Shown here one piece after another: positions 490 to 63,978 of a DNA stretch of 64,000 nucleotides (positions within the stretch are counted from its first letter, which is position 1; each line of letters begins with the position of its first letter). The notes under the pieces are model-generated. The model saw only the letters and a list, made by a program, of their open reading frames with translations, did no database searches and had not been told where the DNA came from. Origin of the DNA: Cliona cf. orientalis (Eukaryota > Porifera > Demospongiae > Clionaida > Clionaidae); assembly GCA_963930775.1 (NCBI GenBank), contig OZ005689.1, forward strand, positions 7,603,569 through 7,667,568, given 5' to 3'. A program made the translations under genes and the position numbers.

Positions 490-708
490 CGTATGATTAC
501 GAAGAAGTGGACACTACCCTATCTGGTCAAGCTGGAGGCATGTTTATCCCACCAGAATTGTCCCTCGAAGCCTACCAGGATGGAATTGCTGAGCAGTCGG
601 AAGGCTTTGTGCTGCTCCTTGAGATTGATGAATCTGAACTGGATCCAAGAGATGTGGGAAATGTCGGTCTGTCTCGATCAGTCTACCTTGTCAGGATCAA
701 TCAATCAG
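490..708 (+). CDS. Gene 1 exon: second half of Calx-beta-like domain 1
   Basis: The exon starts after the acceptor ending at 489 and ends before the donor at 709. It encodes a segment beginning YDYEEVDTT with EQSEGFVLLLEIDESELDPR and ending VRINQ. This matches the C-terminal half of a Calx-beta fold, where a conserved E-x-x-EGF strand is followed by the final strand. The matching first-half exon is outside the window. Near-identical exons recur at 2501-2719, 5983-6204 and 10348-10584. Confidence 0.8.
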
Positions 709-3700
709 GTATGATACCTACTATACACAAAATTATCATTCTTTGACAGGAAATAGACTAATCGCTTATGTAGAGCCCCATGCTTGGATGATCGCCATTG
801 ATGGCAGTGTGATGATTATGGAGTAGATTCTGCGTATTATAGTCCTGTGACAGCTAGTCTATCATAAACAGCAGACAGTGTTATAAATACATCATTCTAC
901 TATTCTACTATGTGCAGACACTTCAAACTTCCAAGTCCTTATTGGAGATGTTGATCTGGGGCAAGATAGGCAAGAGTTGCTGGAAGTGGCTGCAGTGGAA
1001 GACGAGAGAGTACGAGTATTTGTCACCGACGAGCGTCAAACAGCGATAGTGACCAATGGAGCTTATATCCTGCTGGACTGGTTTAGATGGGTGACCGAGA
1101 CACTTGGTGATTCTGCCATCAATGCAACGTTCACCATCCGTAGCACAGAACTGGATGAAGATGGTGAGCCAGAAGAAGAAGCTGAAGAGGTTGAATCCAG
1201 TGACAGAATCGAAGTCGAGTTTGAATCTGACGAAGATGAGTATTATGTCAAAATCTCTCGTGTGATTGCAAGAGAAATGGACGATGAGGACCCGGACCGT
1301 GCTACCTATGAGCTGGAGGCTTGTGTTCCTCAACCTGATGGATCTGAGCAATGCTATAAATCCAACATTACTGTCTTTGCTATCCAAGTAGTAGAATTGC
1401 AGTGCTTCCAACCACCTGGTTCTCGTTTGCTGACCATCACATGCTTCTCTCCTGGCAATGAACTTGACAGCAATGCTAATTGTTCATTTGATGGTGGTCC
1501 TGCTTTTTCATGTGAGCGAGTGCATGAGACATCTTTACTGTATGCATATGAAATGCTTGAAAAAGGGAACCATACAAAAATTATATACAATATAATATCA
1601 AGACTAGTAGCCATTAAAAAAAGGCAGGCCAAGGAAGCAACCAACAGCTTCTATAATAGTTGCATCATAGACTCATAGTGTGGTTTGATATTTACAAACA
1701 GGAGAGCTTACTTTAAGTGTAACAGCACCCGCTTCTGTTTGAATATAGTATTTAAGATCTGTTTTTTGCAGTCTACTATTCAAATTATTGATCTCTTTAA
1801 TAGGTTCATTGGCATTCTTTGAGATAGACCAGTTCTCATTCAGTCCTGGTCCTCACACTCTGACCATTTCCTTCTCTGTGAGTACTGGCGAACAAGGAGA
1901 ATTCGTATATGAATTCACAGGACTAGTCAGAGAACGTATGTTAATGTGTGGCTAACGTTGTTGTATTAGTTCATAATGATGTTACTTTTTTACATTTGTA
2001 GCTGCCGTGTTCAGGTTCTCTTCAGACAGAGGATCAATTGACATCACCGAGGGTAGAGAGTATGAAGATTCTCTGCAATATTCTGGCTTCTCGTATGGTG
2101 CAGTCCCCATCAGCATTACCACCCTGACCTATTCTGAGTATATGGATAGAGGCTTAAGTCTTGAGAACAGTTTTGATTCCAGTGCCATTCCATCTATTGC
2201 TGCCAGTGGTTAGTAGTTATGAGTCTGCATTAATTTTATAAGCCTCCTTTACACGTTTTATATTATAGCTATGGAGTCACCCTTTTACAAGGAGACCATT
2301 TACTATGTATACCATTATATTTTAAAGCTTGAAGTTCCCTGTTAACACTCAACATGACTGTATTGCATAATTATGTACAGTGTATTTTGATTGCTTGAAG
2401 TTTATTTAGACTAGTATAGTCTAGGACCTATTCTGTGACTGATAGTGATAAGCTTCATTATGAACATACAAGTATCATCCTTCTTCATCTACACATGTAG
2501 AGTTTGATTATGAAGAAGTGGACACAACCTTATCTGGTTTAGCTGGTGGTGTATTTTTCCCACCGTCGTTGACCCTCAATGCCTACCAGGATGGAGAAGC
2601 TGAGCAGTTGGAAGGTTTTATTCTCTACCTGGAGATAGATGAGACTGAACTGGATCCGAGAGATGTTGGTAATGTCAGTCTCTCTCGATCAGCCTATCTT
2701 GTCAGGATCAACCAATCAGGTACAGCTATAAGCTTTGGTTACAGGAGTCTCTCCACATAATTTGATGTTTACGTTAAAAATGTTGAGATTCTTGGTTGGG
2801 TAATAGATCGTATAGTAAGTATGCTCATCCAACACTGGAAATAATATAATCATCATTCATCATTAGATACTTCAAATTTCCAAGTCCTAATTGGAGATGT
2901 TGAACTGGGGCAGGACATACCAGGATTACTCGATGTTGCAGCGGGAGAGGAAGATAGAGTGCGTGTGTTTGTATCAGATGACACCCAAACTGCAATAGTG
3001 ACAGACGGAGCCTACATTCTCCTGGATTGGTTCAGATCGGTCACTGAGACACTCGGTGATTCAGTCGTCAATGCTACATTCACCATCACTAGTACAGAAC
3101 TCGATGAAAATGGTGAAGTAGATGAAGAGCCTGAAGAAGTGGAGTCTAATGACAGAATTGAAGTAGAATTTGAATCAGATGAAGATGAATATTATGTCAA
3201 AATCAGTCGTGTTGTTGCAAGAGAGACCCCTGAATATGACCCAGATAGGAATATCTATGAGCTTGAAGCTTGTGTTGATCAACCTGATGGGAGTGAGAGA
3301 TGCTACAGTTCCAACATCACTGTCTTTGCTATTGATACGCTACCTCCAGTGGAAGCTCTCGGTATACCTTAAGGATATTTTTGTATGCGGGTACTAAATT
3401 TAGCGAAATTAGTGATTTGCCTAATTTTTGCCAACAATTATGCATATAAGTATTAAGTTTTTTAACATTTTCGAGTAAATAGAATGTTAATTTTGAAGTT
3501 TAGTTGAAAGAGCACCCACCTAGACACTCATTGTTAGTGTAATTTTCCACTATGTAGCCAAGCAAAATGCATGTAATTTTCATAACACTCTAATTGCGAT
3601 ATTAGCAGTAAGCATTTTGCACATTATTCTCAGTAGAGAATATTATGAGTCATGAAATTTATTCTATACTCTATAGAAATTGAATGTAATGTGGCAGGAG

Positions 3701-61459: not shown

Positions 61460-63978
61460 ATGTCATTTTCTATGTTCTTGGCAGTTTTACTATTCAATAG
61501 TGTAAAGCTTAGCAAAAGCAGCAGTAAATCAGAGACTGTCATGTCTAACATCGGTAAGCATGCATGTCAATTATATCACCACTTTCATCTGATCCTGAGG
61601 TTTTCAATGTTGCTAACACGGTCACCATGACGATACAGGCAATTCTAATTTCCAAGTCCTCATTGGAGATGTGGATTTGGGACCTCTGAGTGAGCACCCT
61701 GAGTTGTTCAAGGTGGCTGCAGTACAGAATGAAGTAGTTAATGTGACAGATGATCAACAGACAACTGTGGTCACTGTTGGAGTCAACATCCGTCTTGACT
61801 GGTCCAGTTGGGTCACTGAGGTGCTCGGTGCTGAGTCAGCTCTCAATGCCACCTTTACCTATTACAGAACTCAGCTCAATGAGTCTGGAAGTGTTGCTGG
61901 ATTTGCTCAAGTGCTCACACAATCAAGTGAGCGTATTGCCATCGAAACTGATGAAGACGAGAGCCATTTCTATGTAGAAATCGCTTCTGTTATCGGGGCT
62001 CCAGAGAATGAATCTGATAGAGCAGTCTATGATTTGGAGGTTTGTGTAGTCCAAGAAGATACGTACTGCTTCACATCCAACATCACTGTCTATGCCATTG
62101 ACAGACCAGATCCCATAGGTACGATTTGGGGTTGACCAAGGGTTGATTTGTGTGTGTGTGTGTGGGGGGGGGGGGGGGGGAGTGTCCAATGAGCAAAAAT
62201 ATGTAGCCGATGGAAACTTAGGTTTTTAGAGATCATGATCAACCGGGAAAGAGATACAGCAAACAAAATAACCATTTTGCTTTTTTTATACATTTCAGCA
62301 ATACTATGCATGGGTAGAGGGTCTGGTGGAATCGTTTATACGGACTGTATGTCAGAAAACAACCCAATCGTTCTTAAAACATGCATGCGCTATTGAGTCT
62401 ACTGATACTGGAGTGTCTGACGTTGTCCCATGTAAGCCGCACATTAATGTCATGGCAAAAATGAATGCCTAGTTATTGATTCAACTGACTATAATACAGG
62501 CAATGGAACTGAAGTCTCACTATCTACCAGAAATCATCGACCGGGAAACTATTGCATTATTTTCAATCTTACCGATATTTACGGGCAGTGGGTCGTCATA
62601 CCTTCTCCGATTACTTTATCAGGTAACTAAGAAAACCTTTAGAATTTTATTTGACAAAGCTAATGCATGAACTAAGCTACCCGGGATAACGGTTCAATAG
62701 TGTTGGTTGTATATAAAAAGCATGGATTTTGTTGTTGCAGAGCCTCTATTGACTGGTTTTTGTGAGTTTGTTGGTGAGGGGCTCAATCAGGTTCACTGTC
62801 AGACCATCCTGGACAATCACATAGTGATGATAACTCAAGAATGCTCTTTTGATGGAGGACCACCACAACCCTGTAAGGCTGAGCTAGGCCACACCAAATT
62901 TTGTTTCCAGTCCTATGCACAGTGTCACGCATGCTTTGGCAATTAGTAGGTACCCTCAGTTATTATGCTGAATATTGCATGTGTACAGTGGTGTACGAAA
63001 TGTTAGCAGAGAGTCTGATTGGTTTGTCTCGGTGACTTTTATGGTGCTGATTAATTAAGTGTTACTGCCAGCCCACATGCTCCTTCACCAGAAATGGAAG
63101 TAGCTATAACTCGGAGTGGCCTAATCAATTGTTATTTGAGTGTCATCTTTCACTTGTACGTGTAATATCCATTTCAATAGGCAGCAGAAATATTACGATT
63201 GATCGTGGAAGATTTACGCCTGGACGTCATACATTGGCGGTGACATTTACCACTGAAGGTGGTCAAATACTTAGTGGTAGTCTATCATTCAAAGGTAATA
63301 AGAGCTCTGAATCTTATCCCGTGCATACTTAAAATAACTATGTTGTAGCAATACGTGTACCAGCCTAGTTTGTGACTCAACCTATAATACTTGAGCTCGA
63401 GCAGGCAACAGCCTAAAGAGCTTGTGGTAATTGTTGTCATTATCAACACAAAAATTGGCCAGATTTCAAGATGTATGAATTATCAGTGCATGAGTGGGCA
63501 ATCATGCAGTGACCATTGACACCCGGTTGAAGTTGGCTAATTAAGTTGATTATTTAGCACATGTGCACAGAGTAATCATGCATGTACCTAGCTGCTGTAA
63601 TTGAAGCATATTATAATGAACTCGCAGTATGCTGGGAGTGTACTGTATATAAATGACTTAAATTTCCCAGGATTTGAATTAAACTGCTCTGTTGATGAAA
63701 ACAGAATCCTCACTGTTGAGTGCAAAGGTGCCAATGGGGTTATTAATGAATCAACCATTGCCTGCGTCTATGATGCTGGACCCAGAGAAACATGTCAGTA
63801 GTTAACCAATAATGTACCGATAACTACTTCATGATTGTAACTTTCCTTAAAGGTAAACTGCCAGTTGTAGTTGAATTTTCCCGATATGACAGAAGTCCAG
63901 GTACTCACAATATCACGATCATCGCAAACTCAACTTTGGGAGTGGTGGATGACTACACTTATGAGTTTTATGTGAAAG
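61460..63978 (+). CDS. Gene 4: paralogue of the gene 3 ectodomain (3' partial)
   Basis: Exon 61460-61553 starts MSFSMFLAVLLFNSVKLSKS, a signal peptide, and ends phase 1. Exon 61639-62118 is module C, close to gene 3 over [29 protein letters not shown] and [13 protein letters not shown]. Then follow 62299-62431 with 62500-62622 (type 1 Cys module, first exon frameshifted), 62741-62872 with 63181-63294 (type 2: LLTGFCEF, CSFDGGPPQPC, FTPGRHTLAV) and 63671-63793 with 63853-63978 (third Cys module: FELNCSV, CVYDAGPRETC, SPGTHNITII). The gene leaves the window, so it could end in a kinase like gene 3 or in Calx-beta domains like gene 1. Because the frameshifted exon is symmetric, skipping it would keep the frame. 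Otherwise the gene is a pseudogene. Confidence 0.75.
62299..62431 (+). pseudogene. Frameshifted Cys-module exon in gene 4
   Basis: Length is 133 nt where sister exons are 117, 126 and 126, all multiples of 3. It reads ILCMGRGSGGIVYTDC and ENNPIVLKTC as expected, then hits TGA at 62393-62395. The tandem CATGCATG at this point adds 4 bases; past it the next frame continues AIESTDTGVSDVVPC to a normal donor. Both splice sites look intact. Confidence 0.8.

Follow-up and report, generated by a model that had tools for sequence, protein, structure and literature searches.

The stretch analysed here, which we call the window, is 64,000 nucleotides of the sponge Cliona cf. orientalis (C1:7603569-7667568, C1 being contig OZ005689.1), and it cuts a larger cluster of genes that share extracellular modules, with the 3′ end of a giant gene, gene 1, at the left and an array of receptor tyrosine kinase (RTK) genes at the right. 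We analysed the window together with 50 kb to its left and 160 kb to its right (cluster coordinates, written clu, are window coordinates plus 50000); the first 264 kb of this joined sequence contain no N, and the genome searched comprised 216,785,154 bases in 149 contigs. Exon families were mapped with hidden Markov models (HMMs), and the map lists plus-strand matches only. The features of gene 1 and of the first two receptors, RTK1 and RTK2 (genes 3 and 4 of a first-pass annotation), are given here in window coordinates.

1..16817, starting left of the window, + strand: 3′ part of gene 1, with repeats of Cys modules, a two-exon Calx-like unit and module C; stop at 16817 (gene-finder model, exon-family HMM map, stop codon read)
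490..708, + strand: gene 1, second exon (CBb) of the Calx-like unit; more copies at 2501-2719, 5983-6204 and 10348-10584
918..1511, + strand: gene 1, a single exon that combines module C (918-1390) with the opening exon of a Cys module; second Cys exon at 1804-1935
2002..2208, + strand: gene 1, first exon (N1) of the Calx-like unit; more copies at 5301-5510 and 9421-9627
2867..3361, + strand: gene 1, module C (gene-finder model, HMM map, alignment, AG/GT borders)
3677..5147, + strand: gene 1, Cys modules A, B and C′ in this order, each of two exons
6278..6766, + strand: gene 1, module C (gene-finder model, HMM map, alignment)
10969..11481, + strand: gene 1, last module C, divergent
54510..54998, + strand: RTK1, module C
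55188..56776, + strand: RTK1, Cys A (55188-55313, 55400-55528) and Cys B (56413-56541, 56624-56776)
58576..58720, + strand: RTK1, transmembrane exon, a hydrophobic stretch followed by RRKK, in frame
58880-59020, 59077-59175, 59238-59452, 59504-59616, 59703-59865, 60380-60522 and 60875-61043, + strand: RTK1, tyrosine kinase exons
61460..61553, + strand: RTK2, signal-peptide exon, ending in phase 1
61639..62118, + strand: RTK2, module C, fold predicted
62300..63978, + strand: RTK2, Cys A (second exon only found by HMM), B (62741-62872, 63181-63294) and C′ (63671-63793, 63853-63978)

From module C to the stop, RTK1 is an open frame of 784 residues in 15 exons whose internal borders are all AG/GT; its six ectodomain exons all end in phase 1, and the phases that follow are 2, 1, 1, 1, 0, 2, 0 and 2. 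The kinase translation contains the AIK lysine, HRDLAARN and DFGL, in agreement with the earlier description of gene 3 as a tyrosine kinase receptor, and RTK1 is the first member of the array. RTK1, the one unit read through by hand, has a single frame across ectodomain, transmembrane segment and kinase; the transmembrane exon family occurs in 10 of the 13 units. RTK1 is without the ectodomain exons D, M1 and M2 of other members, and no signal exon was found for it in the HMM map. Two 9-base minisatellites (52880-53630 and 53674-54354) lie directly upstream of its module C, where a first exon is expected. Gene 4 is RTK2, a second receptor kinase: it runs past the right edge of the window, with kinase exons to about 69.45 kb on the window scale.

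In the array, kinase exons K1 to K7 recur in 13 units on one strand, from window 58.9 kb to clu 264.5 kb. Among 84 matches to exon K5 listed genome-wide (E<=1e-12), 15 lie on C1:7663272-7873603, so the array has at least 15 genes, of which 13 were read. By domain and catalytic motifs its members are tyrosine kinase genes: HRDLAARN and DFGL were found by script in 13 of 13, the A(I/V/L)K lysine in 13 of 13 segments read by eye, and a composite of array exons matches Pfam PF07714 at 2e-83, with an EGFR entry, FGFR2 and MET as best solved relatives. In the HMM map, eight of the 13 units (RTK2-RTK9) are ordered signal, C, A, B, C′, D, M1, M2, transmembrane, kinase; the first exon of Cys A was found in RTK1 and RTK7 only, and the signal exon family in RTK2-RTK10, with none found for RTK11-13. 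The A and B Cys exons of RTK10 were not found. RTK11 has N1 and CBb exons of gene-1 type along with module C, and RTK12 and RTK13, without C, have D-M1-M2, an exon encoding IRIGFE (E 4e-14 and 1e-9, respectively) and 12 and 10 EGF matches. RTK4 (clu 130.9-143.2 kb) has breaks in module C and in K5 (one internal stop) and may be a pseudogene or an assembly error. Ahead of RTK10 (clu 207848-217156, C1:7761416-7770724) stand four exons for signal peptides and a module-C copy with a broken frame and no kinase; unequal crossing-over could leave such remains. Elsewhere on the contig, kinase exons 89-93% identical to the array query stand at C1:7413437 (minus strand), C1:4071224 and C1:4160243 with no module-C or M2 match nearby, so other ectodomains are possible there. 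Literature searched by title and abstract described no such array; Grice et al. (2017) and Srivastava et al. (2010) were outside this search, and absence from print is thus not implied.

Gene 1 is modelled by the gene finder with 69 exons, from clu 27682 to window 16.8 kb; a small spurious exon carries the model past the stop at 16817, and several Cys exons seen in the HMM map are absent from it. All eight of its exons between 490 and 3995 have AG/GT borders and end in phase 1. The gene holds 11 copies of module C, four of them in the window, and the full A-B-C′ series of Cys modules follows four of the 11; after the others comes C′ alone, the Calx-like unit or the 3′ end. Identity between adjacent units reaches 97.9% over 1180 bases, a sign that module number probably changed not long ago. 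On the plus strand left of clu 108 kb the HMM map shows neither kinase nor transmembrane exon families, and the gene-1 product is probably secreted. Just upstream of the gene-1 repeats stands a D-M1-M2 block with the IRIGFE exon.

The Calx-beta label that gene 1 had carried proved weak. None of seven two-exon Calx-like units of gene-1 type (six from gene 1, one from RTK11) matches Pfam at E<=1; a chimeric query (0.021) and an upstream exon (0.0021) gave Calx-beta matches under the Pfam cut-off. We considered gene 1 as a sponge aggregation factor, a family marked by tandem Calx-beta and a Wreath domain, and rejected this on the Calx-beta side: no tandem Calx-beta was recognised in the six of its units scanned. 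In a genome search for Calx-beta, none of the matches listed fell in the C1 cluster, which weakens the proposed kinship with Calx-beta aggregation factors as well. The strongest matches, among those listed, are on C19, C18 and C16, with dense strong clusters at C19:156-450 kb, C19:2.97-3.00 Mb, and C16:1.56-1.58 and 6.68-6.70 Mb; the clusters on C19 and C16 are better aggregation-factor candidates than gene 1.

Sharing of module C between gene 1 and the receptors is far beyond chance: against the 216.8 Mb genome, a gene-1 query finds the RTK1 copy at E 4e-26 and the RTK2 copy at E 2e-35, and the six window copies (four in gene 1 and one in each receptor, the three genes in which module C had been noted) have 35 invariant columns and 40-62% identity to the first copy. 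Two-exon Cys modules, also noted earlier in these genes, follow C in all three in the HMM map. Scatter of the modules across the genome had been named beforehand as evidence against a cluster; what we found is clustering. Of 31 genome matches to module C, some of which are pieces of one copy, 28 lie within about 216 kb on C1:7568462-7784540, one on C6 and two on C8. Exon N1 has 13 of 13 matches in the C1 cluster, the B-type Cys exon 13 of 14 (one on C6) and the C′-type nine of nine; for the membrane-proximal exon M2, 13 of 19 are on C1:7.669-7.868 Mb and six elsewhere.

Phase-1 exons are usual for animal extracellular modules. Across the cluster we counted 194 ectodomain exon copies (split pieces counted apart); 104 have a same-frame model and 90 have none, and 87 of the 104 are flanked by phase-1 introns on both sides. 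The earlier statement that all shared exons are phase-1 flanked therefore holds for most modelled copies, and exon 918-1511, which fuses C with a Cys exon, means that not every module has its own introns. Among kinase exons, K1 and K2 are mostly 1-1, followed by K3 1-0, K4 0-2, K5 2-0, K6 0-2 and K7 2-stop.

The order C, A, B, C′ that follows four of the 11 gene-1 copies of module C is the same as in the receptors. In the Cys-module tree (45 rows), the A-types of gene 1 (five rows) and of the receptors (two rows) form one clade with support 100/100. In the module-C tree (26 rows, leaving out the second pieces of RTK4, RTK8 and RTK10a), RTK1-10 and the C6 copy form a clade (99/99), RTK11 joins the C8 copy (100/99), and eight gene-1 copies group together (100/99) with three older gene-1 copies outside. 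Two rows of alignment A3 are inexact, one differing by a letter and the other containing a gene-finder artefact. Gene-1 and receptor copies of module C do not intermix, and their third positions are 0.37-0.50 identical over most of the module. In the last part of the module this identity is 0.40-0.73, with no clear tract, and we rejected gene conversion between gene 1 and the receptors. D-M1-M2 with the IRIGFE exon is common to the region upstream of gene 1, RTK12 and RTK13. Module order is partly shared, and the module-C copies fall into groups that follow the genes. On both counts duplication from a common ancestor is a better account than exons shuffled freely among unrelated genes, which we rejected as the main explanation; the idea that any of these exons could be freely inserted is not supported in that form. 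The modules look like an old inheritance from a shared ancestor, modified by later losses and swaps; most simply, a single ancestral ectodomain gave rise to both sides, and gene 1 either lost the kinase or never acquired it.

Within the array, receptor halves appear to have been exchanged. Judged by trees and identities, RTK7 is an RTK3/6-like ectodomain joined to an RTK5-like kinase half, RTK8 is an RTK6-like ectodomain joined to an RTK3-like kinase half, and both switch at or near exon D. RTK5 and RTK7 pair as sisters over the stretch from D to the kinase (100/100); in the C-to-Cys part RTK7 groups with RTK3, 4, 6 and 8 (100/99). Constraining RTK5 and RTK7 together in the ectodomain is rejected by the approximately unbiased test (p-AU 7.5e-11), as is placing RTK7 with RTK3, 4, 6 and 8 in the kinase half (5e-6). 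Around D (clu 174.6-174.9 kb) the identity of RTK7 to RTK6 falls from 97% to 62% and its identity to RTK5 rises from 50% through 87% to 95%. RTK6 and RTK8 are sisters in the ectodomain (99/99), where they are 94% identical over 3.8 kb including introns; joining them in the kinase half is rejected (p 0.005), and the closer match of RTK8 there is RTK3, at 92% identity over 3.4 kb against 84% over 2.9 kb for RTK6. A per-exon nearest-neighbour table shows both switches too. For split exons, only first pieces were used in the clade tests, this table, the exon D silent-divergence comparison and the dN/dS estimates.

Exon D, about 141 bases long, occurs outside the window in 10 copies on C1:7669002-7786780 and at C6:2418132 and C8:3157237. 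Its silent divergence is 0.115, against 0.31-0.52 in 15 other exon families (eight genes, 28 pairs). Selection on the nucleotide sequence, for example on a splicing signal, could keep these differences few without gene conversion, and D would then mark the switch only by its position. The unlinked C8 copy supports that account with a third-position identity of 0.80 in D versus 0.46-0.57 in its other exons tested, an excess that makes selection as likely as conversion, and both introns flanking D are just 40-63% identical in 23 of 28 gene pairs. Set against it, DNA identity to the RTK6 copy declines from 93-100% in the ten array copies to 91% on C6 and 85% on C8, the order expected from conversion within the array, and the D copies of RTK12, RTK13 and upstream of gene 1 are divergent. 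We judge the case for selection alone to be evenly poised.

Pooled ratios of nonsynonymous to synonymous change (dN/dS) for RTK2-RTK10, leaving out RTK10a (36 non-independent pairs), are 0.54 for the Cys modules, 0.42 for D-M1-M2, 0.39 for module C and 0.21 for the kinase. Four close pairs, which overlap, show proportionally more amino-acid changes in the Cys modules than in the kinase (Fisher p 0.0004, 0.0036, 0.0217 and 0.0315). By these estimates the ectodomain is changing faster than the kinase, for which relaxed constraint would suffice; pooled dN/dS, below 1 everywhere, does not establish positive selection.

Module C plausibly has an Ig-V-like fold, a prediction that we hold with moderate confidence. 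A model built from the six window copies is mostly beta with short helices and matches 71 PDB chains at E<=0.001; by entry title the best 50 of these 71 are nearly all antibody, nanobody or T-cell-receptor structures, three being titled simply as immune receptor complexes. A Pfam scan of one copy at E<=1 found no family, Ig included, and the module-C profile found no convincing relative among PDB sequences (best E 0.46). For the Cys module, eight weak Pfam families each hit one of 13 members, none convincingly, and no convincing solved relative was found (best E 0.088).

Two further genes lie between gene 1 and RTK1.

28626..37183 (approximate, borders not settled), + strand: gene 2, with somatomedin-B-like and Calx-beta domains and one divergent two-exon Cys module
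36112-36276 (open reading frame) and 36452-36568 (exon), + strand: Cys module of gene 2

Pfam finds Calx-beta at 2e-10 on the joined exons of gene 2, and somatomedin B below the cut-off. The Cys module that had been reported in gene 2 is present as this single divergent copy, detected faintly: its first exon scores E 0.0044 among 560 open reading frames and its second 0.19, the latter with 28 of 38 residues identical to an exon at clu 2728-2844. A separate Ig/FN3 gene occupies 39867-49840, between gene 2 and RTK1; Pfam matches Ig in two of its exons and fn3 in one, and no family at all in the first or the last exon scanned. The HMM map places none of the exon families of the cluster in it.

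We lean, by a narrow measure, towards seeing here the left edge of an RTK array that expands through tandem duplication and exchanges outer and inner receptor halves by recombination, beside a giant kinase-less relative, with recognition of self or of microbes as its most likely role. Array members would signal as cell-surface receptors, with the predicted Ig-V-like module C as their outermost binding part; the gene-1 protein, probably secreted, could act as matrix ligand, co-ligand or decoy for them. Swapping would couple new outer parts to existing kinases with the frame intact, since the introns around D are phase 1 where modelled (14 of 14 D, M1 and M2 exons with a model are 1-1). The locus is thus a candidate fast-evolving recognition system. 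A more specific version, a sponge self-recognition locus in which V-like domains are common to a linked secreted giant and a recombining RTK array, the silent-site-conserved exon D serves as the exchange hinge and each individual's receptor set is matched to its own secreted protein, strikes us as quite improbable.

Several results weigh against this reading. All of the evidence is DNA of one haplotype from one genome. On the side of common descent, the receptor part of the A-type clade consists of two long-branched rows, the B-types come together with little support (62/47), the receptors' third Cys module falls apart from the third of gene 1, and the upstream D-M1-M2-IRIGFE block may be part of a transcript other than that of gene 1. 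Neither a start nor a signal peptide was found for gene 1, which is called secreted because no transmembrane exon was found. The module-C model has a mean predicted local distance difference test score (pLDDT) of 65, and its PDB matches have TM-scores on the query of 0.35-0.48. Reading frames are interrupted in the module-C copies of RTK4, RTK8 and RTK10a and in K5 of RTK4, and the glycine-loop exon of RTK9 was found only in part. The switch in RTK8 is gradual, and the groups for the clade tests were picked after earlier trees and distances had been seen. Pooled dN/dS exceeds 1 in no region, and the share of amino-acid changes in module C does not differ significantly from that of the kinase in any of the four pairs. 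The observation that prompted this work, modules shared by neighbouring genes, stands, and its interpretation is partly supported: the diversifying recognition cluster then proposed is a real cluster, with mosaics and higher ectodomain dN/dS, and falls short at pooled dN/dS, which never passes 1.

The most serious alternative, short of an even chance in our estimation, is that the shared modules reflect local duplication history only: the receptors would signal in ordinary, separate ways, gene 1 would make a structural component of the matrix, and the two would be functionally unconnected. The age and separation of the gene-1 and receptor module-C copies suit this account, as do pooled dN/dS below 1 in every region and kinase and Calx-beta matches scattered across many contigs; it is harder to reconcile with linkage and partly shared order kept despite near-saturated third positions between gene 1 and the receptors, and with ectodomains swapped between array members. 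That the array comprises innate-immune receptors directed at microbes or symbionts, to which gene 1 would add a soluble opsonin or decoy, and that self recognition has no part in it, we find unlikely, though the expansion, the mosaics and the quicker change of the ectodomains are as compatible with recognition between host and microbe as with recognition of self. Proteins of Halichondria panicea with tyrosine kinase, Ig and FN3 domains, described in the available text of PMC8242945 as putative cytokine receptors, favour such a role; pooled dN/dS below 1 does not. It is very doubtful that the array is partly a product of assembly, with alternate haplotypes placed in tandem or haplotype switches imitating mosaics. 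For this assembly (odCliOrie1.1), curation removed 81 haplotypic duplications, and primary k-mer completeness is 60.5% according to the accessible part of PMC12639293, which we read as high heterozygosity; the broken frames of several array copies would also fit. Yet the 264 kb of joined sequence hold no N, module content varies between array members, synonymous distances are large in many pairs, and the halves of RTK8 resemble RTK6 and RTK3, two genes that do not lie side by side.

Sponge receptors for self or microbes are an open question, and the locus favoured here, a kinase array that exchanges ectodomains beside a kinase-less relative, is a concrete and testable one, with exon D as a defined place to look for recombination or silent-site selection. 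Sponge aggregation factors are, like gene 1, large multi-repeat proteins, probably secreted in the case of gene 1, and they have phase-1 exons; unlike theirs, the units of gene 1 are not recognised as Calx-beta by Pfam. The RTK of Geodia cydonium (cited in the available text of PMC12018476) is likewise a sponge receptor kinase with an outer part that, if module C is folded as predicted, may be Ig-like in both; here, in contrast, we find a tandem array, the order C - Cys - D - M1 - M2, mosaics and no Pfam Ig in the module-C copy scanned. For allorecognition in invertebrates, a review describes the mechanisms as a complete mystery (PMC12065747, accessible text). The Botryllus genes fuhc-sec and fuhc-tm resemble our pair as a secreted and a membrane gene adjacent in a candidate recognition locus; they have Ig and EGF domains and, in the portion of PMC12065747 available, no kinase, whereas the Cliona genes share an otherwise unclassified module set known from one genome's sequence. 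The OAK array of Arabidopsis consists of plant receptor-like kinases (PMC3136440, in its available text), whereas here animal tyrosine kinases stand beside a kinase-less relative. As far as these sources go, the likeness to fuhc-sec/fuhc-tm and to OAK suggests a possible mode of working, not descent.

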